Shown: one piece after another, positions 43,964 through 63,146 of the stretch
Layout of the letters: every line of letters starts with the position of its first letter
How positions within the stretch are numbered: position 1 is the first letter of the stretch
The notes under the pieces: model-generated
What the model saw: only the letters and a program-made list of their open reading frames with translations
The model's database searches: none
Told to the model about the DNA's origin: nothing
Assembly: GCF_024626475.1 (NCBI RefSeq)
Contig: NZ_JANKHH010000001.1
Coordinates: forward strand, 456,281 to 520,280
DNA: 64,000 nt
Reading direction: 5' to 3'
From: Parerythrobacter lacustris
Lineage (GTDB): Bacteria; Pseudomonadota; Alphaproteobacteria; Sphingomonadales; Sphingomonadaceae
Program-made: the position numbers and the translations under genes

Positions 43964-44062
43964 GGCTGCCAACATGCGGGGTTGCCAAGGCGGCCCCGCT
44001 TCCGCCACAAGGCGCGGCAAGCACAGCATAATCCTGGGTCGCGCAATTCCGAGAGGACGGAT

Positions 44063-46838: not shown

Positions 46839-47110
46839 AACTTCGATTGGCCGAACCGGGTCGCACGGCCCTGCCGACACGCCACAAGGCGGCGCAGGAA
46901 CCAGGACTGCAGTTGATCCCGCAGAGGGTCCCGCATGGGCGCGGGGCTGCGGGATACCGGGAGGCAATGGGACGTGCGATACCGAGACCGCACCGCAGCC
47001 AGGTCGGGGCATGGAGCCGGCCGCTGCGCTGATTTAGCAGAATCACCGAATCCCCCCTTGCGGCCTCGCGCCGATTGCCTAGTCTGCGCGGCTGGGGGGT
47101 ATGTGTCGTG

Positions 47111-48499
47111 ATGCGGTTTGGGGGAAAAGCCTTCGTCCTAGGCGCTCTGCCATTGCTGGCAGGGCTGGCCTTGCTCGCCGGTGGGGGATCGAGCGCCGAC
47201 GCGCAAGCGAACGGGGCGCGGATCGAAGGCGTTGCCTCATGCGCGGGATCGACCTGCCACGGCCGCGCCGAGGGCAATGGCGACGCCGTCCGGCAAGACG
47301 AGATCGCCACCTGGCAGGAGCCATCCTCGGCCAGCGGGGCGCACAGCCGCGCCTATGCGGTGCTCTCCAGCCCGCGCGGCAGGCAGATCATTGCCAGCCT
47401 GACGAGTTCGGGCAACTACAAGGAATCGGACTGCCTCGGCTGCCATACGACCTACAAGCCCGAAGTCGCCAAGGGCGCGCGCTACCAGGAATCGGACGGG
47501 GTCGGCTGCGAGAGCTGCCACGGCCCGGCCTCGGGCTGGCTCGCCTCGCACTATGTGCTGAGCGACGGCGACAATTCGCGCGTCACACATGCCTCGAACG
47601 TCGCGCGCGGGATGACCGATCTCACCAAGCCGCGGGTGCGCGCCAATGTCTGCCTCGACTGCCACTACGGCAGCGAGAAGACCGGCCAGTTCGTGACCCA
47701 TGCGATGATGGCTGCAGGCCATCCGCGGGTGACTTTCGAGCTCGACCTGTTTTCCGCGCTCCAGCAGCATCATGATGAGGACGCCGACTACACCGGCAAG
47801 CGCATGAAGCCGGCGACCGACAGCGTGCGCCTCTGGGCAGTCGGTCAGGCCGAAGCCGTTGCGCGCTCGACCGAGCTGTTTGCCGGTCCGCGCGGAGCGA
47901 AGGGCGTCTTTCCGCAATATTATTTCTACGACTGCCACAGCTGCCACCGAACGATCACCGATGCCGAGCAGCGGCGGCTGACCTTCGAAACCAACCCGGG
48001 CCGCCCGATCGAGTTCGGGCAGGCCCCGTTCAACGACGAGAACATCATCATGCTGTCCTCGGTCGCGCGGGCGCTTGCCTCAGGCCAGGCCGCGTCGTTC
48101 GATTCGGCGAGCAAGGCGTTCCACGCCGCGATGGGCGAAGGGCGGGCGGAAGCGCAGGCGGCGGCGCTACGGCTCAACCGCGAAGCCAACGCCCTGGCCG
48201 GTGCGCTCGACCGGGATTTCGACGGCAACGATGCCTTCACGGTGATCCAGAAGATTTCCGACACCGCGACCGCGCCGCGCTTCACCGACTACACCGGTTC
48301 TTCGCAAGCGGTGATGGCGGTCGATACGCTGCTCAACGCGCTGGTGCGCGATGGCCGGATCACCACCGGTGCGGCGGCGAGCATCCGGGCGGATATCAAT
48401 GTCGCCTATGGCGCGGTGCGCAGCCCCGAGAGCTACAAGCCGGTCCAGTTCCGCGCCGCCCTCGCCCGGGCAACCGGCGCGATCGGAAGGCTGCGGTAG
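47111..48499 (+). CDS. Pentaheme cytochrome c, cytochrome c554-like
   Basis: Periplasmic multiheme cytochrome of 462 residues. After a signal peptide (LGALPLLAGLALLAGGGSSA) come five heme-attachment motifs: an atypical CX4CH (CAGSTCH) and four CXXCH (CLGCH, CESCH, CLDCH, CHSCH). Order and spacing resemble the cytochrome c554 family of multiheme electron carriers. The C-terminal 180 residues are helical and heme-free. The ATG at 47111 is preceded by GGGGGGTATG. The 272-base gap before it shows no clear promoter. First gene of a plus-strand cytochrome/outer-membrane operon; likely shuttles electrons in the periplasm. Its redox partner is inferred. Confidence 0.88.
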   Translation: MRFGGKAFVLGALPLLAGLALLAGGGSSADAQANGARIEGVASCAGSTCHGRAEGNGDAVRQDEIATWQEPSSASGAHSRAYAVLSSPRGRQIIASLTSSGNYKESDCLGCHTTYKPEVAKGARYQESDGVGCESCHGPASGWLASHYVLSDGDNSRVTHASNVARGMTDLTKPRVRANVCLDCHYGSEKTGQFVTHAMMAAGHPRVTFELDLFSALQQHHDEDADYTGKRMKPATDSVRLWAVGQAEAVARSTELFAGPRGAKGVFPQYYFYDCHSCHRTITDAEQRRLTFETNPGRPIEFGQAPFNDENIIMLSSVARALASGQAASFDSASKAFHAAMGEGRAEAQAAALRLNREANALAGALDRDFDGNDAFTVIQKISDTATAPRFTDYTGSSQAVMAVDTLLNALVRDGRITTGAAASIRADINVAYGAVRSPESYKPVQFRAALARATGAIGRLR

Positions 48500-48500
48500 C

Positions 48501-50480
48501 ATGCGGCGTTCGGGCAGGATCTGGTGCCTTTCGGCCTCGCTCGCTCTGGCCCTGTCGGGCTGTGGCGGAGGCGGCGGAAGCAACCCGAGCCCGATCGGCG
48601 GAACCCCGGCGCCGTCACCGACCCCGCCGCCCAGCGGGCGATTGTTCGCCGACCCCGCGCTCGAATCGCTGACCACGGGGGATGTGCAGCGCATCATTGC
48701 ACAAGCGGCGGGGGAGGCTCAGGCGCGGAACCTGCCATCGACCATCGCGGTGACCGACCGGGTGGGCAATGTGCTCGCGGTGTTCCGCATGAACGGCGCG
48801 CCGCAGACCACGCGGATCAGCACACGCCAGATCGGCGGGCTGGCGACCGCGGCCGAAACGGTCGGACTGCAAGGCACCGATGTTCCGGCATCCGCCGCCG
48901 CCATCGCCAAAGCTATAACCGGCGCCTATCTGTCGAGCGGCGGCAATGCCTTCTCCAGCCGCACCGCGAGCCAGATCGTGCAGGAGCATTTCCCGCCCGC
49001 GCCCAACACCGTCGGGCTGGAGAGCGGGCCGCTGTTCGGGGTGCAGTTCAGCCAGCTGCCCTGTTCCGACCTGTCGGAACGGTTCAATCCGGCGGGCGGC
49101 ACCGGTGCGCTGATCGGTCCCAAGCGCTCGCCACTCGGCCTGTCGGCCGATCCGGGTGGTTTTCCGCTGTACAAGAACGGCGTTGTCGTCGGCGGAATCG
49201 GTGTCGTGGGTGATGGCGACTACGGCTTCGACCCGAATATCCTCGACATCGAGGTCAATGCCGAAGAGGCGATCGCGCTGGCCGGCATCCAGGGCTTCGC
49301 ACCGCCACCGGAAATCCTCGCCGACCGCATCCCGGTCGATGGCACGACCCTGCGGTTCAGCGACATGACGGTGGCCGATCTCAGCCCGCTGCAAGCCAAC
49401 TTCGGCGCGATCAACGGTTCGGCCGGCACGCTCATTCCGGTGACGGCGTACACCGACGGGACGATCCGCCCCGGTACCGCCTATGGCACCGAAGCCTCCG
49501 GTGTGCGGCGCACCACCGCCGCCGAGTTCGCCCTGCCCGATGCCTATGTGCTGACCAACGGGGCGGGCACCGGGCGCTATCCGATCCGCGGCGGGACCGA
49601 CGCGGCCTTGGTCGGCCAGCCGCTGACCGCCGCCGAGGCACGCGCGATCCTCGAGGAAGCCTTCACCGTGCTGTCGCGCGCGCGGGCGCAAATCCGTCGG
49701 CCGCTCGACAGCCGGATGCAGGCGACCATCAGCTTGGTCGATTCGCAAGGCGCGATCCTCGGCATCGTGCGTTCGCCCGACGGGCCGATGTTCGGCACCG
49801 ACGTGTCGTTGCAGAAGGCGCGCACGGCGACGTTCTTTTCCAATTCGGTCGCTGCCGCGCAGATGAGCGCCTTCGCGCCGAGCGCGCCCTATGTGCAGCG
49901 CGTGCGGACCTTCCTGGGCGATGCCAACGCGCTGACGGGGAACTTCGCCTTTGCCGACCGTTCGGGCGGGAACCTCGCGCGACCTTATTTCCCCGATGGG
50001 GAAGTGGCGCAATTGCCCGGGCCGCTTTCGGTCGAACAGTCTTCGAAATTCAGTCCCTTTGCGGTCGGGCTCCAGTCGGACCTGATCGAAGACAATGTCG
50101 TCCAACACGTCGTCCATATCGTCACCAACGGCGGTGCGGCGGACACCCCGCGCCGCTGCACCGGCATCCCGCAGAACAACCGGCTCGCCAACGGCATCCA
50201 GATTTTCCCCGGCTCGGTACCGATCTACCGCGGCAACACGCTGGTCGGCGGCATCGGCGTGTCGGGCGACGGGATCGATCAGGACGATATGGTCAGTTTC
50301 CTCGGGGCGCATAACGGAGGCCTGCGGGTCGGCGGTGTCGGTAACGCGCCCAACGCTATCCGGGCGGACCGGATCGTGGTCCAGCTCGGCAACAACCGGC
50401 AGGTTCGCCTGCGTTATGTCAGCTGCCCCTTCGCGCCGTTCCTCGACACGGCGCAGCAGAATGTGTGCGAGGGGCTGTAG
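48501..50480 (+). CDS. Lipoprotein with two GlcG/HbpS-like domains
   Basis: 659-residue lipoprotein: signal peptide with lipobox LSGC ending at Cys21, then a Gly/Pro/Ser-rich linker. Two GlcG/HbpS-type domains follow. Domain 1 has VQRIIAQAAGEAQARNLPST, AVTDRVGNVLAVFRMNG and FPLYKNGVVVGGIGVVGDG. Domain 2, from about residue 375, has ATISLVDSQGAILGIVRSPD and VPIYRGNTLVGGIGVSGDG. HbpS proteins of this family bind heme, so a heme-handling or redox-sensing role beside the cytochromes is plausible. It starts one base after the cytochrome stop and is followed directly by the barrel gene. Function is inference. Confidence 0.82.
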   Translation: MRRSGRIWCLSASLALALSGCGGGGGSNPSPIGGTPAPSPTPPPSGRLFADPALESLTTGDVQRIIAQAAGEAQARNLPSTIAVTDRVGNVLAVFRMNGAPQTTRISTRQIGGLATAAETVGLQGTDVPASAAAIAKAITGAYLSSGGNAFSSRTASQIVQEHFPPAPNTVGLESGPLFGVQFSQLPCSDLSERFNPAGGTGALIGPKRSPLGLSADPGGFPLYKNGVVVGGIGVVGDGDYGFDPNILDIEVNAEEAIALAGIQGFAPPPEILADRIPVDGTTLRFSDMTVADLSPLQANFGAINGSAGTLIPVTAYTDGTIRPGTAYGTEASGVRRTTAAEFALPDAYVLTNGAGTGRYPIRGGTDAALVGQPLTAAEARAILEEAFTVLSRARAQIRRPLDSRMQATISLVDSQGAILGIVRSPDGPMFGTDVSLQKARTATFFSNSVAAAQMSAFAPSAPYVQRVRTFLGDANALTGNFAFADRSGGNLARPYFPDGEVAQLPGPLSVEQSSKFSPFAVGLQSDLIEDNVVQHVVHIVTNGGAADTPRRCTGIPQNNRLANGIQIFPGSVPIYRGNTLVGGIGVSGDGIDQDDMVSFLGAHNGGLRVGGVGNAPNAIRADRIVVQLGNNRQVRLRYVSCPFAPFLDTAQQNVCEGL

Positions 50481-52619
50481 ATGCCGTCGCCGCTGATCCT
50501 GCCCCTGATCCTGCACGCGGCGGCCCCGCTGCCGCAGCCGGTGCCGGAGGTGGATCGGGCAGCTTCCCCGTTCGATGCCGCATTCGGCGATTTCGCCTTT
50601 GCGCCCGGAGTGGTGACCGCTGCGCGCGCGCAGGCCCGGCCGGTCAGTTTTGCGGAGGCGTTTGCGCCGTTCAGCCAGGTGCGGCCGGTGGTCGATGCGG
50701 GATATCTCGGCGCGCTGTCGCAGCCCGAGCCCGAGCGGCAGCGACCGGGCGGCGGCGAGCCGGAAGAAGAGGTCCAGGCCGAACCCGCTCAGCCCGCATT
50801 CGAGGTCGAGCCCTCCGCCCCGCCGCCGGTCGATACGCAGAACGAGCTGGAGGATCGGCGCCGCCCAGGCTTCAACAGCCGGTTGCCCGACCGGATCGAC
50901 CAGACCAACGAAGGCGCGTTCCGCGCGCCTCCGCCCGAGGCCTTCATCGAGGCTGACGGCATTCCGATTCCCGATCGCTGGCGGTTGTTGCAAACGCTCT
51001 GTCCGCCCAAGGACCAGCGCAACAACCCCGATGCTTACGGCATTTTCACTTCGCTGAAGTACAATTGCACCGCGAAGACCGATCCCTACGGGCAGAATGT
51101 GCTCAAGGGCGACCGCCCGCTGCCGCCGGGCAAGCGGCCCGGGTTTCTCAAGGGCGACGACTGGTTCTTCATCGTCAATGCGATCAGCGATACGGTGTTC
51201 GAACCGCGCACCTTCCCGATCCCTGTCGGTGTCCAGACCACGCAGGACCCCGACCGGCTCGATGTGTTCGGCAACGATTTCAGCCCGGTGCTGTCGCAAA
51301 GCTTCATTTTCGGCGCGGCGCTGCTCAAGGGCAACACCGCCTACAAACCGCCGACCGTCGAATATCGTGTCACCTTCGCCTACAACCTCAACTACGTCGA
51401 TGTGCCCGAACGGCGCGTGCTGTTCGTCGAGCCGTCCAAGCCATCGCACCGGTTCGACCAGTTCCTCGGGGTGCAGGAGGCCTTCGTCGACTATCACATC
51501 GGGCGCTACGACAACGACCGGTACGACTTTATTTCGGTGCGCGCGGGCATCCAGCCGTTCCAGGCCGATTTCCGCGGCTTCCTGTTCAACGACAGCCAGC
51601 TCGGCATCCGGCTGTTCGGCAATCGCGACAACAACCGCTTCCAGTTCAACCTCGGCGCGTTCTGGCGGCTGGAGAAAGACACCAACAGCGGGCTCAACAA
51701 TGTAACCCGCATGCCGCGCGACGATTTCCTGTTCATCGCCAACGCCTATCGCCAGGATTTCCTGATTCCCGCGCTGACCAGCCAGGTGACGCTCGCCTAC
51801 AACCGCAACCGCGAGGCGGACGATATCGAGATCGACGACAACGGCTTCCCGGTCCGCCCGGCGCTGCTCGGCAGCCTGCGCGGGCGCGAATACGATGTGT
51901 TCTATCTCGGCTACAACGCCGACGGCCGGCTCGGCCGGATCAACGTCACCGCCAGCGCCTATGCCGCGCTGGGAGAGGACCGCAACAGCTTCTTCACCGA
52001 TCGCCCGGCGGATATCGAGGCGTTCTTTGCCGCTGCCGAGCTGAGCTACGACAAGGACTGGATGCGATTCCGCCTGTCGGGCCTCTATCAGAGCGGTGAC
52101 AGCGACCCGTATGACGACAAGGAAACCGGGTTCGACGCGGTGTTCGAGAACCCGGTCTTCGCCGGGGCGGATACGTCCTACTGGATCCGCCAGACGATCC
52201 CCTTCGCGGGCGGCGGGCGGGTGATCAGCGTCAACGGGCGCAACGGCATCCTCAACACGCTGCGCAGTTCCAAGGAACAGGGGCAGTCGAACTTCAACAA
52301 CCCCGGCCTGATCCTGCTCGGCGCCGGGGCCGATTTCGATCTCACCCCCGAATTCCGCATCTCGGCCAATGCCAATCACCTGTGGTTCGAGAACACCGCG
52401 ACGATGGAGGCACTGCGCAACGAGGGCACGATCCCGAAGGATATCGGCTGGGACCTGTCCGCCGCCGCGATCTGGCGCCCGCATGCGAACCAGAACATCG
52501 TATTCCGCCTCTCGGCCGCCACGCTCCTTTCGGGTGACGGCTTCCGCGACCTGTTCGACAACCTGGGCAACGACGACAAGTTCTACTCGGTGCTCGCCAA
52601 TGTGATCCTGACCTACTGA
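50481..52619 (+). CDS. Large outer-membrane beta-barrel protein
   Basis: 712 residues. The N terminus is a short hydrophobic stretch (LILPLILHAAA) that may be a weak signal peptide, followed by a Pro/Glu-rich linker (about residues 75-120). From about residue 225 onward, alternating aromatic/hydrophobic strands run to a terminal Tyr (VLANVILTY), as in outer-membrane barrels inserted by Bam. Stretches such as YRVTFAYNLNYVDVPERRVL and FQFNLGAFWRLEKDTN fit. It has no TonB plug. It is immediately followed, with one base overlap, by a ten-heme cytochrome, a pairing like the porin-cytochrome conduits MtrAB or PioAB, though sequence similarity cannot be tested here. Confidence 0.8.
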   Translation: MPSPLILPLILHAAAPLPQPVPEVDRAASPFDAAFGDFAFAPGVVTAARAQARPVSFAEAFAPFSQVRPVVDAGYLGALSQPEPERQRPGGGEPEEEVQAEPAQPAFEVEPSAPPPVDTQNELEDRRRPGFNSRLPDRIDQTNEGAFRAPPPEAFIEADGIPIPDRWRLLQTLCPPKDQRNNPDAYGIFTSLKYNCTAKTDPYGQNVLKGDRPLPPGKRPGFLKGDDWFFIVNAISDTVFEPRTFPIPVGVQTTQDPDRLDVFGNDFSPVLSQSFIFGAALLKGNTAYKPPTVEYRVTFAYNLNYVDVPERRVLFVEPSKPSHRFDQFLGVQEAFVDYHIGRYDNDRYDFISVRAGIQPFQADFRGFLFNDSQLGIRLFGNRDNNRFQFNLGAFWRLEKDTNSGLNNVTRMPRDDFLFIANAYRQDFLIPALTSQVTLAYNRNREADDIEIDDNGFPVRPALLGSLRGREYDVFYLGYNADGRLGRINVTASAYAALGEDRNSFFTDRPADIEAFFAAAELSYDKDWMRFRLSGLYQSGDSDPYDDKETGFDAVFENPVFAGADTSYWIRQTIPFAGGGRVISVNGRNGILNTLRSSKEQGQSNFNNPGLILLGAGADFDLTPEFRISANANHLWFENTATMEALRNEGTIPKDIGWDLSAAAIWRPHANQNIVFRLSAATLLSGDGFRDLFDNLGNDDKFYSVLANVILTY

Positions 52620-55600
52620 TGCCCTTCCTGCGCCAAATGCTCTTCTGGATCGCCGCCGCCACGCTGGCCGGGGCGATGATCTTCGCCACCCAGGGCGAGG
52701 CCGCCGAAAAGGTGCGCAAGGTCGAGCGCGACTACAGCAAGATCTGGAAAGAACCCGCCCCGGTCCAGCAGCCGGGCAAGACCGAAGGCGAGCAACTGGC
52801 GGCGGTCGCGCGCAAATCCGACGGCTGCCTCAGCTGCCACGAAGGCAGCGATGTCCCGTCGATGCACGAAACCCCGGCGGTGCAGCTCGGCTGTGTCGAT
52901 TGCCACGGCGGCGATGCGTCGGTCACCGGCAATCCCAAGCTGCCTTATGACAGCGACCACAACTTCAAGCAGATGGAACTGGCGCACGTCCTTCCCGAAT
53001 ATCCGGACGACTGGCACGGCACTTCGGCCAACCCCAAGCGTAGCTACACCCTGCTCAACCGCGAAGCGCCCGAATTCATCCGGTTCGTGAACCCGAGCGA
53101 CTACCGCGTGGTGCGCGAGGCCTGCGGGGCCTGCCACATGCCGATCATCGAAGCGGGCGAACGTTCGATCATGGCGACCGGGGCGATGCTGTGGGGCGGT
53201 GCGGCTTACAACAACGGAATTCTGCCGTTCAAGAACTACATCGTGGGCGAAGCTTTCACGAGGGATGGGCAGCCGGCCAGGCTGCTCTCGCCCGGTGCCC
53301 CCCCGGGAACCCTGACCGAGAACCAGAAGGCGCGCGGCGCTCTGGAAGCGCTCTATCCGCTGCCGACCTGGCAGGTGGTTCCACCGGGCGACGTGTTCCG
53401 CGTGTTCGAGCGGGGCGGGCGGACGATCAACCCGGCCTTCCCCGAAATCGGCCTGCCCAACCCGACCGGCAGCATCCAGCGGCTGGAGGAACCGGGGCGG
53501 CCCGATCTCAAGCAGTCGAACCGCGGCATGGGCACCGGACTGCGCGTCGCGATCCCGGTGCTCAACATCCACAAGACCCGGCTCAACGATCCCTTCATGT
53601 GGTACATGGGCACCAACGACCAGCCGGGCGATTATCGCCATTCGGGCTGCGCCGCGTGCCACGTGGTCTATGCCAACGACCGCGAACCGCGCCACTCGCT
53701 GACCTATGCCCAATACGGGCGCGACGGCCAGTCGATCACGCAGGACCCGACGATCTGCAACAAGACCGAACCCAAGCATGATGATGGTGGTCATGGCGAG
53801 AAGGCCGGCCACGGCGATGCCGATCATGGCGGCAGCGATCACGCGACGGAGCCATCCGGCCACGGCGCGCTGAGGCAACCTGCGGGGGGCAAGTGCGCCT
53901 CGCCCGAAGCGATCGCCGAGGCGGCAGAGAAGGCCGACGACGATCCGGCGGGCAAGATTGCGCACCAGCGCGAAAAGGGCCATCCGCTCAAGCACGTGTT
54001 CACCCGGTCGATCCCGACCGCGCAGTGCATGAACTGCCACATGCACCAGCCGAACATCTTCCTCAATTCCTACCTCGGCTACACCATGTGGGACTACGAA
54101 TCCGACGCGCCCTTCATGTGGCCGAAGGAACAGAAATACCCCACAGCGGAGGAAGTGCGCGCGGTGACCGACCGCAATCCCGAAGGCGCAAGCCCCAAGG
54201 GCAATTGGGCGGACATCGATTTCCTGCGCAATGTCTATGACCTCAATCCGCAGCTGAAACACACCCAGTTCGCCGATTATCACGGCCACGGGTGGAACTT
54301 CCGCGCGATCTTCAAGCGCGATCGTGAGGGCAATCTGCTCGACAAGGATGACAACATCATCCCCCACGACGATCCGGAGAAATGGCGCAAGGAAGGCGAA
54401 GGCAAGTTCGTCGACGTGAAGACCAATCCGGGCAAGACGGTCCACATGATGGACATCCATGCCGAGAAGGGGATGCAATGCGCCGACTGCCACTTCGCGC
54501 AGGACAGCCACGGCAACGGGATGATATATGGCGAGGTCGCCAACGCGATCGAGATCGGGTGCAAGGACTGCCACGGCACGGCGGACGCCTATCCGACGCT
54601 GCGCACCAGCGGCCCGGCAGCTCCTCCCAAGGGGCACGATCTCTCGCTGTTGCGCAATCCGGACGGACAGCGGCGGTTCGAATGGGTGTGGGATGACAAC
54701 GGCCAGCGTGCGCTGGTGCAGCGCTCGATCATCGATCCGAAGCTGAGCTGGACGGTCAGCCTGACCAAGGACAGCGCCGATCCCGACAGTCCCTATTTCA
54801 ACGCCAAGTCCGCCCGCGCCAAGCTGGTCAGCGCAGACAGCGCAGGGGCCGAGGTGATGGAGTTCGGGCCCGATGTCCCGACCGACAAGCGCGCCCACCG
54901 CGACGAGAATATGGCGTGTTTCACCTGCCACCTGTCATGGACGACATCGTGCGGCGGCTGCCACCTGCCGATCGAGGCCAACTGGAAGACCAAGGACCAC
55001 CATTACGAGAACGGTTCCACCCGCAATTTCGCGACCTACAACCCGCAGGTCGCGCGCGACGAGATGTTCCAGCTCGGCAAGCACCAGACGACCAAGGGCA
55101 ACCAGATCGCGCCGGTCCGCTCGACCTCGGCGCTGGTGCTGAGCTCGACCAACATCAATCGCGAGCGGATCTATGTCCAGCAGCCGCCGATCTCATCGAG
55201 CGGCTACAGCTCGCAGGCTTTCGCGCCACATTTCCCGCATACGGTGCGCAAGACCGAGACCAAGAAATGCTCGGACTGCCATATCTCCGATCAGGGCGAC
55301 AACAATGCGATCATGGCGCAGACGCTGCTGCTCGGGACCAATTTCGTCAATTTCGTCGGGCTCAACGCGTGGACCGGCGAGGAACGCGGGTTCGAAGCGA
55401 TCCGGGTGACTGAGTGGGACGAACCGCAAGCGGTGCTCGGCTCCTACCTGCACAAATACGCCTATCCCGATTACTACAACCAGTTTGTCGATGAAAACGA
55501 CCGCGAGCTGAAGAACTGGGTGCGCGGCAAGACGTTCGACGAGAGCCTCTCGGGCGAAACCCAGGCCTTCGAGGAGTTCGCCAATGTCCACGAGGGGACG

Positions 55601-56836
55601 AGCGACCGGGTCGGTTGCCTGCAACTGCGCGGCGAATACATGTTCGTGGCCGAGGGCAAGGGCGGCTTCCGGGTCTACGATGTCGCCTCGATCGCCAACA
55701 AGGGCGTGAGCGAACGGATCATCACCGCGCCGTTCAGCTCGATGGGGCATGACACCCACGTGAAGAGCGCCAATGCAACCTGCATGGCGCTCGCCACCAA
55801 CCAGCCGATCAACCCGCTGCGCAACACCAAGGCGATGCAGGAAGCCAACCAGGAGCAGCCCTTCCTGCCGATCTACAACTACGCGGTGATCAGCGATAGC
55901 GAGGAGGGCATGATCCTCGTCAACGTCAACACCATGGCCGACGGCGAATTCCGCAACAACAAGCTGGAGCGGTTCGAATTCGCAAATGGCCAGACGGCGT
56001 GGAACGAGAACGGTGTGCTGACCGGGGCTCGCCATGTGCAGCTGGCCGGCGAAGTGGCCTATTTCTCCACCGACCGCGGTCTGGTGATGGTCGACCTCAA
56101 GGATCCGGCCAATCCGGTGGCCAAGCTGGTCGATCTGCCCGGGGCGAAGTCTTCGGCGATCCAGTTCCGCTATCTGTGGGTGGCCGATGGCAGCGGCCTC
56201 AAGCTGTTCGATGTCACCGACCTGCGCAACCCCGTGCCGGTGCCGCGGGGGAACATCGCCATCCCGGGCGCGCAGCGGCTCTACCTCGCGCGGACCTATG
56301 CCTATGTCGCCGCGAAATCGAACGGGCTGGTGATCGTTGACATGACCCGGCCCGAAGCCCCTGCGATCTATCGCAAGGTCCAGCCCGACGGGCAGCCCTA
56401 CGACAGCACGCTCGGCGGCAGGTTGATCGATACCGAGGACGTGATCGTCGCCTCGACCAATGCGTCGCAGTTCGCCTATGTTGCGGACGGGCGCGGCGGG
56501 ATGAAGGTGCTGCAACTGACCAGCCCGGACAGCCAGCCCAATTTCTACGGCTTCAGCCCGGCGCCGATGCCAGAGCTCATCGCCTGGGCGCGCACCAAGT
56601 CGCCCGCGATCGCGATGAGCAAGGGCCTCGACCGTGACCGTGCGGTGGACGAGACCGGCGGCCAGATGGCAGTGTTCGGCCGGCTGGGTTCACGCCCGTT
56701 CAACCGCGAGGAAATGGAAAAGCTGTTCAAGCGCGGCGAGGCGTGGACCGTCTCCGACGAGGTCGACATGCGCGGCTGGGTGGGCAAGGGCGGCAAATAC
56801 CTGCGCGCCGATGCGAAGGGTTCGGTGGAGTATTGA
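52619..56836 (+). CDS. Decaheme cytochrome c with C-terminal LVIVD-type beta-propeller
   Basis: 1405 residues. A signal peptide (LFWIAAATLAGAMIFATQG, cleavage near residue 28) is followed by ten CXXCH motifs at about residues 69, 91, 169, 343, 469, 619, 647, 766, 777 and 883. A histidine-rich insert (about residues 386-416) may bind metal. From about residue 985 the sequence turns into beta-propeller repeats of the LVIVD kind (GGFRVYDVASIA, GLVMVDLKDPANPVAKL, GLKLFDVTDLRNPV, GLVIVDMTRPEAPAIY). The propeller could dock to the barrel or face outside. Last gene of the plus operon. I do not know a characterised protein with this combination; role in electron transfer is inferred from the hemes. 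Confidence 0.88.
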   Translation: MPFLRQMLFWIAAATLAGAMIFATQGEAAEKVRKVERDYSKIWKEPAPVQQPGKTEGEQLAAVARKSDGCLSCHEGSDVPSMHETPAVQLGCVDCHGGDASVTGNPKLPYDSDHNFKQMELAHVLPEYPDDWHGTSANPKRSYTLLNREAPEFIRFVNPSDYRVVREACGACHMPIIEAGERSIMATGAMLWGGAAYNNGILPFKNYIVGEAFTRDGQPARLLSPGAPPGTLTENQKARGALEALYPLPTWQVVPPGDVFRVFERGGRTINPAFPEIGLPNPTGSIQRLEEPGRPDLKQSNRGMGTGLRVAIPVLNIHKTRLNDPFMWYMGTNDQPGDYRHSGCAACHVVYANDREPRHSLTYAQYGRDGQSITQDPTICNKTEPKHDDGGHGEKAGHGDADHGGSDHATEPSGHGALRQPAGGKCASPEAIAEAAEKADDDPAGKIAHQREKGHPLKHVFTRSIPTAQCMNCHMHQPNIFLNSYLGYTMWDYESDAPFMWPKEQKYPTAEEVRAVTDRNPEGASPKGNWADIDFLRNVYDLNPQLKHTQFADYHGHGWNFRAIFKRDREGNLLDKDDNIIPHDDPEKWRKEGEGKFVDVKTNPGKTVHMMDIHAEKGMQCADCHFAQDSHGNGMIYGEVANAIEIGCKDCHGTADAYPTLRTSGPAAPPKGHDLSLLRNPDGQRRFEWVWDDNGQRALVQRSIIDPKLSWTVSLTKDSADPDSPYFNAKSARAKLVSADSAGAEVMEFGPDVPTDKRAHRDENMACFTCHLSWTTSCGGCHLPIEANWKTKDHHYENGSTRNFATYNPQVARDEMFQLGKHQTTKGNQIAPVRSTSALVLSSTNINRERIYVQQPPISSSGYSSQAFAPHFPHTVRKTETKKCSDCHISDQGDNNAIMAQTLLLGTNFVNFVGLNAWTGEERGFEAIRVTEWDEPQAVLGSYLHKYAYPDYYNQFVDENDRELKNWVRGKTFDESLSGETQAFEEFANVHEGTSDRVGCLQLRGEYMFVAEGKGGFRVYDVASIANKGVSERIITAPFSSMGHDTHVKSANATCMALATNQPINPLRNTKAMQEANQEQPFLPIYNYAVISDSEEGMILVNVNTMADGEFRNNKLERFEFANGQTAWNENGVLTGARHVQLAGEVAYFSTDRGLVMVDLKDPANPVAKLVDLPGAKSSAIQFRYLWVADGSGLKLFDVTDLRNPVPVPRGNIAIPGAQRLYLARTYAYVAAKSNGLVIVDMTRPEAPAIYRKVQPDGQPYDSTLGGRLIDTEDVIVASTNASQFAYVADGRGGMKVLQLTSPDSQPNFYGFSPAPMPELIAWARTKSPAIAMSKGLDRDRAVDETGGQMAVFGRLGSRPFNREEMEKLFKRGEAWTVSDEVDMRGWVGKGGKYLRADAKGSVEY

Positions 56837-57061: not shown

Positions 57062-57910
57062 TCACTGCCGTTCGCGGAACATGTCCTTCATCATCGGCTT
57101 GAGGTGTTCGCCGTAGAACGCCAGCACATCCCAGTTGTTGGTCTTCTCGTAGTGGCTGACCAGCGATTGCCCGTCCCACCTATGCAGCGCGTAGGTCGCC
57201 GGTTCGGTGGTGATAAGGTCGCGGTTGTCGGCGCGGTTGGGGTCGACCGGGCGCAGGTCGAGCGAGACCAGCGGCGCGACCGACGGCGTAACCCCCAGCG
57301 GCACGCCGTGGAACGTCGTCATGATCGGGCGGTGCAAATGGCCGCAGTGGATCGCCAGGATCTGGTCATGCCCGGCAATCGCCTCGGCGAAGTTGGCGAT
57401 CCACTCCTCGTCCGGCGCGGGGTCCATCCAGTCGACCCCGGATACGACCGGCGGATGGTGCATGAAGATCAGAGTCGGCATGCCCGCGTTCGCCTCGAGC
57501 TGGCTGCGCAGCCAGTCGCGCCGCGCGTGGCAGAACGCCCCGCCGTGCCGCCCTACCTCCAGCGTATCGAGCATGATGAGCAGCAGCCCGTCCTGCTGAT
57601 GGGTGTAATGGATGAATCCGCCCTCGGTCGGGGTGTCGGGGAAAGCATGGAGCAGGCCTTCGCGGCTGTCGTGATTGCCGACCATCGGCAGGATCGGACA
57701 GGTCACCCGTTCGAGCAGCGCTGCGGTCTTCTCGAAGCTGTCCAGATCGCCATGGTCGGTCAGGTCGCCTGACAGCACCAGCAGGTCGATCGGGTTCGGC
57801 TGGGCAAGCAGGCGGTCGAGCGTCTTGCGAAAGCGGATGCGGTTGAGTTCCTCCGGCTTCGCATCCGGATCGAAACCGATATGGATATCGGTCATCTGCG
57901 CTACCAGCAT
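57062..57910 (-). CDS. Calcineurin-like metallophosphoesterase, CpdA/Icc-like
   Basis: 282-residue dinuclear-metal phosphoesterase with the full motif set: QMTDIHIG, VLSGDLTDHGD, VGNHDSR, FMHHPPV and HCGHLHRP. Size and motif spacing fit class III cyclic-nucleotide phosphodiesterases (CpdA). The ATG has AGGGGG upstream and lies 19 bases after the FHA-cytochrome gene, so it is the fourth gene of the operon that also encodes a protein with two cyclic-nucleotide-binding domains. Hydrolysis of cAMP is therefore a reasonable but unproven role. Confidence 0.85.
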   Translation of the reverse strand: MLVAQMTDIHIGFDPDAKPEELNRIRFRKTLDRLLAQPNPIDLLVLSGDLTDHGDLDSFEKTAALLERVTCPILPMVGNHDSREGLLHAFPDTPTEGGFIHYTHQQDGLLLIMLDTLEVGRHGGAFCHARRDWLRSQLEANAGMPTLIFMHHPPVVSGVDWMDPAPDEEWIANFAEAIAGHDQILAIHCGHLHRPIMTTFHGVPLGVTPSVAPLVSLDLRPVDPNRADNRDLITTEPATYALHRWDGQSLVSHYEKTNNWDVLAFYGEHLKPMMKDMFRERQ

Positions 57911-57929: not shown

Positions 57930-59729
57930 CTAACCGGTTTTCCGGGTGATCATCGCGACCTGCTTGTCCCTAGCATCCTTCCGGCGTTCGGGAACCCCCC
58001 CGGGTTTGGGGTGGTAGGAATGGCACATGGCGCAGCTCGAAGGAACCGGGGCCTGTCGCGCCTTTTCGCCCAGATGGCAGTCGCGGCATTCGGCGATCTT
58101 GGGCATCAGCAGGTCTTCGGACGTTTTCGACACATCCGCCGCGTGGCAGCTGATGCAGGTTTCCTCGCCCTGCCGCTGGCCGCCCTCGATCTTCTCGAAC
58201 GCGGCATCGCCATGCGATTTGTGGTCGAACCAACTATGCTTGAGGAAACTCTGGTTGAGATAGACCGGAACCACATCGGCACGCCCGCCCCGCGTGGTCG
58301 GGATATGGCATTCGCCGCACACGCCCTTGGGGCTCAGCGCCTGGTTGATGCCGATATAGTTGCGCGAAGGGCGGCCGAAGTCCTGGTAGAAGCGCTGTCC
58401 CTGCGCATAGTCGCCCGGTCGCTGCCTGCCGGTGGTGATCGGGCGGCGCGGTGCGCGGTCCATCGCGGCGAGATCGGCGCGCATCTGGTCGACGTCGCCA
58501 TGGCGCAGGGTGCGGAAAGTGTCGCCGACCTTGTCGTAGACCAGGCTGTGGCAGGCCTCGCAGGCTTCCTCCATCTCGACCGGCTTGAAGCCATAACGGT
58601 CGGCGGTGGGCTCGTGGCAATCCTTGCATTCGAGCGCCGGGCCATAGTCGCGCTTCGAGCCGATATTGCCCGCCATCCGCGCCACCCCGCCGGTCTTGCG
58701 CAGGTGCAGTTCGTGCGGGAATTTGAGCCCGTTCTGTTCGACGATCGGCTTGTCGAGCGAAAGCCGCGTCGTCTTCTTGCTGCCGAGCTCGCCATAGAAG
58801 ACCGCGCTCAGCTGCGGGTGCGCGGTGCCGAAATCGGCCGCGTTGGCCAGTTGCGTATCCTTCAGGCGGGTGTCCATCCCGTCATGGCATTCGGCGCAGA
58901 ATTTCTGCGGCGTCGGTTCCATCCGCCCCGCGCCCTCGTGCTCGGTGTGGCAGGTGGTGCAATTTCCGGGTCCTTCCTTGCCGAAAGTCTCGGCCACCGC
59001 CCACAGAAACTGGTCACCGCGCGACATCGGGCCGCGGCTGGTCAGCTGGCGATCGATCTTGGCGTGGTCGTCGATCTTCTCGTGGCAGGTGAGGCAGGTC
59101 TCGTCGCGTACCGAGACGAAGGCATCGACGTGGCACGCCTCGCAATTATCCTCCAGCCCGTGGTGCTTGACGCTGAGGTCGCCGGTGCTCCAGCTTGCGT
59201 CCATGATCGTCTGGCCGGGCTTCTTGTAGTCGGGTTCGACCCGTTCGCGGGTCAGGTTGGTGTAGATCGGCACCGCGAGGAAGGCGAGGAGCACCGCGAT
59301 CAGACCGGCCCACGCCATCGCGCGCTTGCTCGGCAGCGCGGAGGCGAGTTCGAAGCCCTTGGCCGCATCGGTTGCGGGCTTGTCTTCCTTCTGGGTGATG
59401 ACGATGGTCACCGGCCCGTCGCCGTCCTGCGTCACGGCGAGCCGGTAGCTGGCAAAGCCGAGCTCGACCCCTTCCTGCGGCTTGAAGGTCGCCGAGGTCG
59501 TGGTCCGCCCGTCGACCGTGAAGCCGAGCGTCCCGACCGCCTCTGCCGTGAGCTGCCCGCCGGTCGCCGGATCGATCCGGGCATGTTGCTGCTCAACCGC
59601 GAGGTCGGGCAGGTGGATGTCGTTCTCCGCCGCGCGGCCGATGGTCAGGCTGTCCTGCGCCAGTTCGCGGTCGCGCACGATCTCGCGCCCGGTTGCGGTG
59701 AAGTCGATGGTGCGGATCAGGAACGCCAT
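57930..59729 (-). CDS. FHA-domain / membrane-anchored decaheme cytochrome c fusion
   Basis: 599 residues from the ATG at 59729, which has GAGAGG upstream. Residues 20-100 form an FHA domain (LTIGRAAENDIHLPD with Gly31-Arg32, Asn36-Asp37, then His49). The usual Ser and Arg before that His are replaced (VEQQHARI), so phosphothreonine binding may be altered. One membrane helix follows (about residues 138-157), then a periplasmic region with ten CXXCH motifs: CEACH, CLTCH, CTTCH, CAECH, CKDCH, CEACH, CGECH, CISCH, CRDCH and CAMCH. The FHA domain should face the cytoplasm and the hemes the periplasm. It lies 10 bases after the cytochrome b-like gene. I know of no characterised FHA-cytochrome fusion. 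Confidence 0.9.
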   Translation of the reverse strand: MAFLIRTIDFTATGREIVRDRELAQDSLTIGRAAENDIHLPDLAVEQQHARIDPATGGQLTAEAVGTLGFTVDGRTTTSATFKPQEGVELGFASYRLAVTQDGDGPVTIVITQKEDKPATDAAKGFELASALPSKRAMAWAGLIAVLLAFLAVPIYTNLTRERVEPDYKKPGQTIMDASWSTGDLSVKHHGLEDNCEACHVDAFVSVRDETCLTCHEKIDDHAKIDRQLTSRGPMSRGDQFLWAVAETFGKEGPGNCTTCHTEHEGAGRMEPTPQKFCAECHDGMDTRLKDTQLANAADFGTAHPQLSAVFYGELGSKKTTRLSLDKPIVEQNGLKFPHELHLRKTGGVARMAGNIGSKRDYGPALECKDCHEPTADRYGFKPVEMEEACEACHSLVYDKVGDTFRTLRHGDVDQMRADLAAMDRAPRRPITTGRQRPGDYAQGQRFYQDFGRPSRNYIGINQALSPKGVCGECHIPTTRGGRADVVPVYLNQSFLKHSWFDHKSHGDAAFEKIEGGQRQGEETCISCHAADVSKTSEDLLMPKIAECRDCHLGEKARQAPVPSSCAMCHSYHPKPGGVPERRKDARDKQVAMITRKTG

Positions 59730-59739
59730 GGCCCGCCTC

Positions 59740-60606
59740 TCACCAGTAATAGAACACGCTGACGACATGCGCGGTGAGCGCGGCGATCAGCAGTATGGTT
59801 GCGGGGATGTGGATGAACAGCCAGACCTCCAGCAGCGCCTTGTAGCGCATGTGGCGGCGGATCTGGTCGAGCTGTGCCTGCCGCCGCGCGAGCAGCGAGC
59901 GGACCTTGTCCGCCGCTTCGTCGCCGCCGGTGCCGTCGAAGGCGCGCAAGGCCTTGCGGGTGGCGCAGCGGGGGTATTTGCCGGTCAGGCGGGCGAGGAA
60001 TCCGGCCTTGAACACATCCTGGTCGAGCGCGGCGATGACGACATCGGCCAGATGCCGGTCGAGCGGCTGCGCGGCCGTTTCGAGCTGGCGGTCGAGCGCG
60101 TCGAGCCCGTCGACCATCTGCTCGCGCGTCATCTCGCGCCGGTTGTTCGACAGCGAGCGGGGCAGCACCGAATAGACCACGATCCCGTAGATGCCCGACA
60201 ATATCACCAGCATCATCAGCGCCCAGGCCAGCGTGTGCACGTTCCAGCCGAGCTGGAAGCCGGTGTGCCAGGTGCCGATCACGATCAGCGCCAGCCCGAG
60301 ATAGACATGCGCGCTGGTCCAGCCCTTGAGGCTGAAATACTTCTCGCTCATCTTGCGCTTGCGCACGCCGAGCAGCGAGAGCCACAGGATCAGCAGCAGC
60401 CCGATGGTGCCGAGCGTATAGCCGTACCAGGTGCCGCCGTTGTGGCGCGGTTCGACATCGACCAGGAAATAGCTGACTACCACCGTCAGCATCAGCACCG
60501 TCGCGATCTTGAGCCAGCGGAAACCCCGGTGCGCGAGGAAGCTCTCGTGGTCGGTGTCGCGGCGGCGATCGTGGAACGCGAAGTTGGCTTTGGGCAGGCT
60601 GGCCAT
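59740..60606 (-). CDS. Membrane cytochrome b-like protein
   Basis: 288 residues with about five membrane helices: near residues 31-50, 70-90, 105-125, 130-150 and the last 25 residues. Histidines placed for b-heme ligation lie in SAHVYLGLALIVIGTWHTG, NVHTLAWALMM, EVWLFIHIPATI and TAHVVSVFYYW. A cytoplasmic loop rich in Arg and Asp (about residues 155-250) separates the helix groups. The start overlaps the stop of the flavoprotein gene by one base, and the FHA-cytochrome follows 10 bases later. It is the natural inner-membrane link between the Fe-S flavoprotein and the periplasmic hemes. Heme type is inferred. Confidence 0.8.
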   Translation of the reverse strand: MASLPKANFAFHDRRRDTDHESFLAHRGFRWLKIATVLMLTVVVSYFLVDVEPRHNGGTWYGYTLGTIGLLLILWLSLLGVRKRKMSEKYFSLKGWTSAHVYLGLALIVIGTWHTGFQLGWNVHTLAWALMMLVILSGIYGIVVYSVLPRSLSNNRREMTREQMVDGLDALDRQLETAAQPLDRHLADVVIAALDQDVFKAGFLARLTGKYPRCATRKALRAFDGTGGDEAADKVRSLLARRQAQLDQIRRHMRYKALLEVWLFIHIPATILLIAALTAHVVSVFYYW

Positions 60607-63146
60607 CAGTCGGCGTCCTCCTGCACGAGCTTGGTGAAGGTGAGGAATTTCTCCGGCGCGACGCGGATCGCGGCACCCGTGGGGCAGGCGCGTACACAAG
60701 CCGGCCCGCCTTCGATGCCCGAACACATATCGCATTTGATCGCCAGCTTGGCCTGCTCGACGCCCGCCTCCTCGGCCTTCTTCTTGCGCCATTTGTAGGG
60801 CGCTTCACCCGGCCCGGGGCCGCGCCCGAACAGCAGCCAGCTGAGCAGCGAGGGCTTGGGCGGGGGCTTCGCATCGAGCCGGATCACCCCATAGGGGCAG
60901 TTGCGCTGGCAGTTGCCGCAGCCGATGCATTTCTCGTCGATGAAGACCTCGCCGTCGGCCCCGCGCTTGATCGCGTTGGGCGGACAGTCGGCCATGCAGT
61001 GCGGGTGCTCGCAGTGGCGGCAGGAGGTCGGCACGTGGAGGTGGGCGTAGGTCGTCCCGGCTTCGCGATCGAGTCGGCTCAGCCCCTCGTGGCTGTCGGC
61101 GCAGGCCTTCTCGCAATTGTCGCAGCCGACGCACAGCGTCTCGTCGATCAGCAGCACGTCGGTCGCTTCGCCGATGCCGTTGTCGATCAGGAACTGCGCG
61201 GTCTTGGAATAGAGGTCCACCGCGCCGCCGAAGCTGTGCTTCTGGCTTTCGATGAAGCTGTTGACCTCGCGCCGCGATTTCATGTCGCGCCGCGCGCGTT
61301 CGAGCAGCTTGGGATGCTTGTCGAGCACCTGCTTGAACGCATCGCCGTTGATCTTGATCACTTCGGACTTGATCGCTGCCTTGACCGTGGCGGTGCGCTT
61401 GCCGCCGTCGAGCAGCGCCATTTCGCCGACATAGGACCCGGCGGGGAGGTAGGACAGGAACACCGGCTTGCCGCCGATATCCTTCTCGACGATCATCGAG
61501 CCGACGCGGACGACATAGATGTCGTTGCCCTCGTCGCCTTCCTTCAGGATTGCCTCCCCGGCCGGAACGCGGACGATTTCGGAGGTGTCCACCACCTCGC
61601 GGATATCGTCCGACTTGAGGCCCGAGCCGAACATCTGGAGAAGCTGGCGCTCGGTCGAGATGCGTTCGATTGCCTTCTTCGCCGTCGGCACCTGCGACTG
61701 CAGCTTGAGCGCGGCGAGGCGCGAAATCTCGACTACGATGGTGTCTTCCGCCGCACGGATCGTCGCGCCGCGGCGGCGGCCAGAGATTAGCCCGACTTCG
61801 CCGAAAATCGATCCGCATTCGATCGGGATGGTGATCGACGGGTCTTCCGGATTGACCTCGACCGCGACCGAGCCGCTGGCGATGCCGAACAGCGAGTTGC
61901 CCGGCGCGTTGCGCTCGAAGATCACCTCGCCCTTGCGGAAGAACTTTGCTTCGGATTCGAGCATGAACTCGCGCATCTGCAGCGGGTTCATGCCGTTGAG
62001 GATCGAGACGTTCGCGCGCAGGAATTCGAGCCAGTCCTCGGTGCTGCGGCCCGCCGGCAGGTCCTTGAACTTGGCGACCATGATCGGTTCGTCGGCCGGC
62101 TTCAGCTCGGTGTTGCCGTTGATGAACTCGATAACGTCGTAGCCCTGGTTCATGCAGTGCTTGATCAGCGGATAGCCCGCCAACGCACCGATCACGAAGA
62201 TGCCCGGGGTGGTCGATTCGAACACCGGCGAGAGCTTTGGGAAGGCGTTGCGATCCTCGCTGGCGAATTCGATCCCGCATTCCTCGACGAACATGCGCGG
62301 CGGGGCGGAGCCGATGCGGGCGATGATCCGGTCGCAGGGGATGCGGATCTCGCCGTCGCGGGTGGTCAGGGTGATGAAGCCGGGTTCGATTTCCTTGGTT
62401 TCGCTCTCCAGCCGGATCATGAGCTTGCCGGAATCGTGATCGGCCTGAAGCGCCTTGACGTTGGCATCCTTGGCGGTGGGAAAATCGGTGCTGCGGTTGA
62501 GGATCGACACGGTGTTGCGCTGCGCCGGGTCTTCGGCGAGGCCGCGCGCATTTTCGATCCCAGCGTCACCGGTACCGACGATCACGATATGCTCGTCGAC
62601 ATACTCGGTCGGATCGTCGAGCTGGTACTGCACATGCGGCAGGTCCGCGCCGGGGCAGCGCATCCGGTTGGGATTACCCTGCGTGCCGATGGCGAGGACG
62701 ACATTCTCGGCCATCACCTTCTCACCATTGGTCAGCTCGATCTCATAGGGCGGCTGGTGGCGCTGGATTTCCTTGGTCGTCTTGCTGCCGTCGCGCCCGC
62801 GCATCACGATGGTGTGGACGCTGCCGGGGATCGCGGGGCCGGTGCCCCTGATCGCCTTGGCTTCGGCATGGTATTTGACGTTGACCTTGTATCCGGCGGT
62901 CTGCTCGTCCCACTTGCCGAGGATCACCTCGCGCTTGCCCGCGTCGAAATCGCAGTCCGACCGCAGCACCAGATTGCTGGGCGTCGCCATGACGTGCTTG
63001 CCCTTCTGGTACTTGTAGATCGTGTCCGAGAGGTGGTCGGTCTTCTCGAGCAGCACGTGGCTCAGGCCGAGCGCAGCCGCCCGGGCAGCGGCGCTGAGGC
63101 CGGCCGGTCCCGATCCGATAATGGCTACGCGATACGTCTCCGGCAT
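60606..63146 (-). CDS. Flavoprotein fused to two cyclic-nucleotide-binding domains and a four-cluster ferredoxin
   Basis: 846-residue cytoplasmic fusion. Residues 1-350 are a thioredoxin-reductase-like FAD/NAD(P)H oxidoreductase with GSGPAGLSAA near residue 11 and a second Rossmann motif VGTGDAGIENA, but no redox CXXC. Two cNMP-binding domains (about residues 385-505 and 510-640) follow, with phosphate-cassette motifs FGEVGLISGRRRGATI and VGEMALLDGGKRTATV. The C-terminal 180 residues carry four 4Fe-4S Cys sets: CVGCDNCEKAC, CRHCEHPHCMADC, CIGCGNCQRNC and CDMCSGIEGGPACVRAC, like the DmsB/NrfC electron-transfer subunits. First gene of the minus operon. It probably passes electrons from NAD(P)H to the membrane cytochrome b under cAMP or cGMP control; that path is inference. 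Confidence 0.9.
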   Translation of the reverse strand: MPETYRVAIIGSGPAGLSAAARAAALGLSHVLLEKTDHLSDTIYKYQKGKHVMATPSNLVLRSDCDFDAGKREVILGKWDEQTAGYKVNVKYHAEAKAIRGTGPAIPGSVHTIVMRGRDGSKTTKEIQRHQPPYEIELTNGEKVMAENVVLAIGTQGNPNRMRCPGADLPHVQYQLDDPTEYVDEHIVIVGTGDAGIENARGLAEDPAQRNTVSILNRSTDFPTAKDANVKALQADHDSGKLMIRLESETKEIEPGFITLTTRDGEIRIPCDRIIARIGSAPPRMFVEECGIEFASEDRNAFPKLSPVFESTTPGIFVIGALAGYPLIKHCMNQGYDVIEFINGNTELKPADEPIMVAKFKDLPAGRSTEDWLEFLRANVSILNGMNPLQMREFMLESEAKFFRKGEVIFERNAPGNSLFGIASGSVAVEVNPEDPSITIPIECGSIFGEVGLISGRRRGATIRAAEDTIVVEISRLAALKLQSQVPTAKKAIERISTERQLLQMFGSGLKSDDIREVVDTSEIVRVPAGEAILKEGDEGNDIYVVRVGSMIVEKDIGGKPVFLSYLPAGSYVGEMALLDGGKRTATVKAAIKSEVIKINGDAFKQVLDKHPKLLERARRDMKSRREVNSFIESQKHSFGGAVDLYSKTAQFLIDNGIGEATDVLLIDETLCVGCDNCEKACADSHEGLSRLDREAGTTYAHLHVPTSCRHCEHPHCMADCPPNAIKRGADGEVFIDEKCIGCGNCQRNCPYGVIRLDAKPPPKPSLLSWLLFGRGPGPGEAPYKWRKKKAEEAGVEQAKLAIKCDMCSGIEGGPACVRACPTGAAIRVAPEKFLTFTKLVQEDAD

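Follow-up and report, generated by a model that had tools for sequence, protein, structure and literature searches.

The extHIJKLMNOPQS cluster of Geobacter encodes an outer-membrane barrel, a cytochrome b, an Fe-S protein, and multiheme cytochromes with five, ten, and twelve hemes, with ExtM among its products (PMC5877670). Clusters of the ext type have been described as outer-membrane conduits with roles in the reduction of metal oxides, selenite, and tellurite (PMC6148476, PMC5877670): an extI mutant is affected in selenite and tellurite reduction (PMC5877670), and a Geobacter strain keeping only the extHIJKL part retains partial reduction of Fe(III) and Mn(IV) oxides (PMC6148476). A survey of the porin–cytochrome conduits (Pcc) makes no mention of Alphaproteobacteria or sphingomonads (PMC4245776). 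We analyzed a window of 64,000 nucleotides from Parerythrobacter lacustris (NCBI RefSeq assembly GCF_024626475.1, contig NZ_JANKHH010000001.1, positions 456,281 to 520,280 of the forward strand; coordinates below are those of the window), in which a gene on the plus strand (52619–56836) encodes a protein of 1405 amino acids that fuses a ten-heme c-type cytochrome to a C-terminal seven-bladed propeller. We propose, with middling confidence, that this fusion is the outermost redox protein in an electron-transfer chain that spans the cell envelope, starts from NAD(P)H, ends at the outer membrane, and is controlled by a cyclic nucleoside monophosphate (cNMP).

The open reading frame of the fusion is intact and has a strong coding signature (G + C content by codon position 0.62/0.45/0.85). 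Ten CXXCH motifs lie at residues 70, 92, 169, 344, 470, 621, 648, 767, 778, and 884, all before residue 890. Exactly ten were also present in each complete relative examined, two classes being covered, and the fusion is therefore not a chance feature. The original prediction of a ten-heme cytochrome carrying an LVIVD-type propeller was borne out, as Pfam LVIVD (PF08309) matched the fusion with an E-value of 4e-12 and 45.7 bits (curated cut-off 20.2); the top-scoring blade spans residues 1219–1249 (56273–56365, plus strand). The profile search recovered the repeats in all 15 sequences of a diverse alignment (the fusion and 14 relatives). For structure prediction, AlphaFold2 was applied to residues 88–1287 of the Sphingomonas caeni orthologue (L125), which cover hemes 3–10 and the C-terminus and leave out the first two hemes. 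Only the C-terminal part of the model was confident, with a predicted local distance difference test (pLDDT) mostly around 90. It aligned with PpgL (Z-score 29.3, root-mean-square deviation (rmsd) 2.8, 298 residues) and with many other seven-bladed propellers, and according to this model, the C-terminal domain is a closed seven-bladed propeller fold, in agreement with the prediction. Mapped from the orthologue, it comprises approximately residues 910–1348 (55346–56662, plus strand), so that its expected C-terminal position stands while its length is nearer 440 residues than the 400 first estimated. The propeller starts directly past heme 10, and residues C1000, C1055, and H1139 are invariant.

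The heme domain (approximately residues 60–905; 52796–55333, plus strand) is ExtM-like. Its match to the NCBIfam ExtM model NF040943 was weak (E-value 1.2e-17, 63.4 bits) and did not reach the equivalog cut-off of 800 bits. Three propeller-free relatives (L063, L190, and L198) match ExtM much better than the fusion does, and hhalign aligned the fusion family with them at a probability of 99.9% (E-value 6.4e-37), with the hemes in register from heme 1 to approximately heme 9. Both groups also share non-heme residues, e.g., GDYR..GC..CH..Y, DPTI, and paired motifs around hemes 6–9. On this alignment evidence, ExtM and the heme domain are remote homologues, which rules out an entirely new cytochrome; the twelve hemes of ExtM were not found in any complete fusion relative. 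Hence, it is the propeller fusion and the surrounding chain that are new here, and the cytochrome itself is not of an unknown kind. Thirteen His residues outside the CXXCH motifs are conserved in at least 14 of 15 sequences and are candidate distal ligands; by their number, they would suffice for bis-His ligation. Between hemes 4 and 5, alignment revealed a His/Gly-rich insertion (residues ~380–450; 53756–53968, plus strand) that varies in length among sphingomonads, is missing in most relatives outside Sphingomonadaceae, and could possibly bind metal. Because of the link to ExtM, we also considered the NADH-dependent, membrane-bound tellurite reductase of Erythromonas ursincola, but its subunits of 62 and 55 kDa (PMC5488091) do not fit a fusion of ~155 kDa by length.

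The fusion carries a Sec-type signal peptide at approximately residues 1–28 (52619–52702, plus strand; hydrophobic at residues 6–24 by hydropathy, then QGEAA-EK), and the protein resides in the cell envelope. Immediately upstream lies the gene for an outer-membrane barrel (50481–52619, plus strand; 712 amino acids), with the barrel domain at approximately residues 228–712. As had been predicted, the two genes overlap by one base: the barrel stop codon TGA (52617–52619) and the ATG of the fusion share the A in TGATG, and 52 of the 76 named relatives share this −1 spacing. The C-terminal residue of the barrel is Tyr (Tyr or Phe in 71 of 72 relatives), and the N-terminal part is Pro-rich and variable. 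The AlphaFold2 model of the barrel has 18 strands (predicted template modeling score 0.71, mean pLDDT 69), and fold comparison matched it to AlgE (Z-score 25.0, rmsd 3.3, 358 residues) and OprD/Occ (Z-scores of 21–24). As modeled, the barrel is of an 18-stranded AlgE/OprD-type fold. The Alginate_exp family did not match the window barrel and matched only four of 47 barrel relatives (best E-value 0.017). MtrB_PioB (PF11854) gave no match in the window barrel, the genome, or the 47 barrel relatives, and an Mtr/Pio-type conduit was therefore ruled out.

Barrel and fusion are strictly linked. Both occur in the identical 75 of 296 genomes of the same order; in a 76th genome (G086), the only match is weak and concerns a related cytochrome. 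Among the named loci, 59 are 20 kb or longer, and in all of these, genes for the pentaheme cytochrome, the HbpS-like protein, the barrel, and the fusion are adjacent in that order. A second block, formed by a phosphoesterase, a forkhead-associated (FHA) decaheme cytochrome, a cytochrome b, and a flavin adenine dinucleotide (FAD)/cNMP/FeS protein, is located nearby in 44 of these loci and is convergent in 43. In distant alphaproteobacterial families and in a second class, the genes instead form a single co-directional operon in the order FAD/cNMP/FeS protein, cytochrome b, FHA-decaheme cytochrome, HbpS-like protein, barrel, and fusion; the pentaheme gene is nearby in most cases. The occurrence of the same genes in two independent arrangements is strong evidence for a single function, and this is apparently a conserved, hitherto undescribed electron-transfer chain of seven genes. 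The original prediction of an outer-membrane conduit is only partly supported: the linkage to the barrel agrees with it, but the barrel is AlgE/OprD-like and not of the Mtr type.

The partner proteins in the window supply all redox modules for the inner membrane and the periplasm. On the minus strand, a cytoplasmic flavoprotein (60606–63146) combines a pyridine-nucleotide oxidoreductase domain with two cNMP-binding domains, which keep the conserved GE motifs, and with 16 Cys residues spaced for four [4Fe-4S] clusters. It is followed by a four-helix cytochrome b (59740–60606; longest open reading frame to 60792), in which the conserved His pairs H109/H123 and H275/H289, 14 residues apart on two helices, form a diheme-b pattern. 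The next protein (57930–59768) consists of a cytoplasmic FHA domain, one transmembrane helix (residues 150–168), and a decaheme periplasmic domain, and the block is completed by a metallophosphoesterase (57062–57910) that is nearest to the cyclic-nucleotide phosphodiesterases SpdA, CpdA, and Rv0805. On the plus strand, a c554-like periplasmic pentaheme cytochrome (47075–48499; four CXXCH and a conserved CX4CH at residue 56) precedes a lipoprotein with HbpS-like domains (48501–50480; open reading frame 48351–50480, with residue 51 as the likely start). The lipobox of the latter is LSGC, and the Gly following it suggests a location in the outer membrane; a lipobox is present in 59 of 67 relatives. 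This protein is the sole predicted lipoprotein and contains no heme motifs, so that the cluster has no lipoprotein outer-membrane cytochrome.

The route that we infer would start with the reduction of the FAD/four-[4Fe-4S] protein by NAD(P)H in the cytoplasm, with the cNMP-binding domains switching this protein on or off. The diheme cytochrome b would carry electrons through the inner membrane and hand them to the FHA-anchored decaheme cytochrome, from which they would cross the periplasm, probably via the pentaheme cytochrome. Finally, the ten-heme domain, positioned at the barrel and the HbpS-type lipoprotein, would take up the electrons and pass them to an acceptor located at the outer membrane or outside it, with the propeller as a putative docking or substrate-binding face. 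Thermodynamically, entry on the NAD(P)H side favors outward electron flow. The likely source of the cyclic nucleotide is a lineage-specific neighbor with CHASE2 and class III nucleotide cyclase domains (43982–46123, plus strand); this cyclase and the phosphoesterase adjoin the cluster in the window and in some other lineages. As an observation in its own right, the cyclase, the phosphodiesterase-like enzyme (57062–57910), and the flavoprotein with two cNMP-binding domains (60606–63146) surround one chain, as if a cyclic nucleotide gated electron entry.

By analogy, the best reading of the chain is that it works like the Geobacter Ext and Pcc conduits. The clusters of G. sulfurreducens and of the window both comprise a barrel, a non-cytochrome lipoprotein, pentaheme and 10-heme cytochromes, a cytochrome b, and Fe-S proteins (PMC5877670, PMC6148476). 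They differ in that the fusion has ten hemes and ExtM twelve, the propeller is missing from the ExtM model, the lipoprotein is of the HbpS type here and a rhodanese in ext, and electrons enter through an FAD/cNMP/[4Fe-4S] protein here and through a Rieske/b pair in ext. Regarding Pcc, the 18 strands lie inside the range of 18–22, and periplasmic multiheme cytochromes with 5–14 hemes are a common element (PMC4245776), which applies to the pentaheme cytochrome in all 59 long loci. Unlike Pcc, the cluster has no lipoprotein outer-membrane cytochrome, which is also the case for some Pcc clusters (PMC4245776), and its large cytochrome bears a propeller. MtrCAB, PioAB, and MtoAB likewise have a decaheme cytochrome beside an outer-membrane barrel gene; however, 28 strands are predicted for MtrB, MtoB, and PioB compared to 18 here (PMC4245776). 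A further difference is the missing match to MtrB_PioB. The decaheme fusion protein is also approximately four times larger than MtrA.

Searches for earlier descriptions gave a mixed answer to the original claim of an undescribed conduit type. We found no description of an LVIVD or other propeller joined to a multiheme cytochrome, nor of multiheme cytochromes in sphingomonads, in the open-licence papers searched (preprints not covered), and the same papers gave no precedent for the cNMP-linked entry; Ext/Pcc-like electron transfer across the envelope is already known, and the known Geobacter cluster contains a relative of the heme part, ExtM. Among solved structures, the sequence search for a relative of the fusion returned only a spurious His-rich match, profile searches returned none, and a search of PHROGs yielded no match. 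Precedents for propellers linked to c-type hemes are the NHL protein DFE_0451 of Desulfovibrio ferrophilus, hydrazine synthase, and cytochrome cd1 (PMC9769857, PMC12758564, PMC10654088). In D. ferrophilus, unlike here, the NHL propeller near multiheme cytochromes is encoded by a separate gene (PMC9769857). Hydrazine synthase alpha differs in that its propeller is N-terminal and six-bladed and comes with two hemes. A single c heme is present in cytochrome cd1. A separate propeller gene with NHL repeats was also observed in genome G086 of the same order (L203, 22–1266), where it adjoins two genes for ExtM-like multiheme cytochromes (L203, 2350–7463). This is suggestive only, but an association of propellers with ExtM-like cytochromes may predate the fusion.

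Several points weigh against a chain that reaches the outer membrane. The fusion lacks a lipid anchor and any clear route of export to the surface: a conserved lipobox Cys is absent, and in 60 of the 76 relatives, no Cys precedes heme 1. Surface exposure is therefore unsupported. The heme part of the L125 model has pLDDT values mostly below 60 and provides neither heme geometry nor a continuous wire. Extracellular respiration in these mostly aerobic organisms was not found in the literature searched. Furthermore, an 18-stranded AlgE/OprD-like barrel, as modeled, may not be wide enough to hold a large cytochrome, which keeps one rival explanation serious. According to this explanation, the fusion would be a periplasmic reductase with a dedicated channel: the barrel would admit a soluble compound (oxyanion, quinone-like, or humic), the HbpS lipoprotein would bind it, and the fusion would reduce it in the periplasm with electrons from the same NAD(P)H chain, none of which would cross the outer membrane. 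We regard this strongest rival as possible, if somewhat doubtful. It agrees with the nearest barrel folds being substrate channels, with the missing lipobox, and with the proposal that ExtI of the related Geobacter cluster is a selenite/tellurite channel (PMC5877670). The low heme density (ten hemes in ~850 residues) and the large conserved non-heme stretches (e.g., residues 230–340) are enzyme-like as well. However, we identified no catalytic site or odd heme ligation in the fusion, and the strict linkage to the barrel, including the gene overlap, would equally fit a physical complex.

Inward electron uptake, in which the chain would oxidize an external donor like Fe(II) or Mn(II) and feed electrons inwards, appears unlikely. 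Porin–cytochrome conduits are bidirectional in other bacteria, as known for MtoAB and PioAB (PMC10654088, PMC10734462), and 27 genomes of iron-oxidizing Gallionellaceae encode a Forkhead-associated protein with ten CXXCH (PMC10734462, table 1), which we liken to the FHA-decaheme protein (57930–59768) by description only. Nevertheless, the flavoprotein at the cytoplasmic entry is of the NAD(P)H type and has four Fe-S clusters, electron transfer from Fe(II) to NAD needs energy input, and the cluster encodes no quinone or oxidase link. Even less probable is a redox sensor that reports the state of the envelope via the FHA and cNMP-binding domains instead of transporting electrons in bulk: the FHA domain on the decaheme protein, the two cNMP-binding domains, and the neighboring cyclase and phosphodiesterase would suit it, but a mere sensor would be costly to build with approximately 25 c-type hemes, two b hemes, and four Fe-S clusters, and the cyclase adjoins the cluster only in part of the lineages.

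The proposed chain, which would start at NAD(P)H in the cytoplasm and end at the outer membrane, seems to be spread across many aerobic sphingomonads and other Proteobacteria. A scan with one genome per species returned at least 593 fusion relatives, the best 80 of which all belong to sphingomonads or unclassified relatives (Sphingobium, Novosphingobium, Erythrobacter, Sphingomonas, and others). Class-wide, 29 of 385 genomes matched the fusion (three from the same family), another search added two, and in the second class of the phylum, 12 of 321 genomes matched. Relatives in other alphaproteobacterial families and in the second class share 58–71% identity over the best stretch. If the chain operates as proposed, hundreds of sequenced species deemed ordinary aerobes would possess a complete path for electrons between NAD(P)H and the outer membrane, and the first protein of this path would itself contain the second-messenger control. 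Envelope-crossing electron transfer would then extend beyond metal-respiring specialists, and the uncharacterized ExtM-type cytochromes would gain a tractable system in laboratory bacteria that are harmless and genetically accessible. A bolder version, which we put forward only tentatively, is a cNMP-gated, NAD(P)H-driven conduit, common to many aerobic Alphaproteobacteria and to a second proteobacterial class, in which the seven-bladed propeller caps the ExtM-like ten-heme domain and docks it to the 18-stranded barrel, as a hidden extracellular electron route in aerobic Sphingobium, Novosphingobium, and Erythrobacter.

Some loci are noteworthy in themselves. Plasmid-borne copies of the fusion bear the annotation hypothetical protein or multiheme c-type cytochrome. 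A conjugative plasmid of 959 kb carries the cluster in Sphingobium herbicidovorans (L149, 515–8668 and 28128–29807), where two-partner secretion genes of the ShlB/FhaC type flank it. In one genome of the second class (G1270), the cluster is present twice, on separate contigs (L186 and L187), each time with a divergent cyclase gene. Finally, a small exported protein of approximately 150 amino acids is encoded near the cluster in eight distant loci (e.g., L167, 3535–3987); where checked (e.g., L155), its gene sits between those for the FHA-decaheme and HbpS proteins, and it is a possible further member of the cluster.

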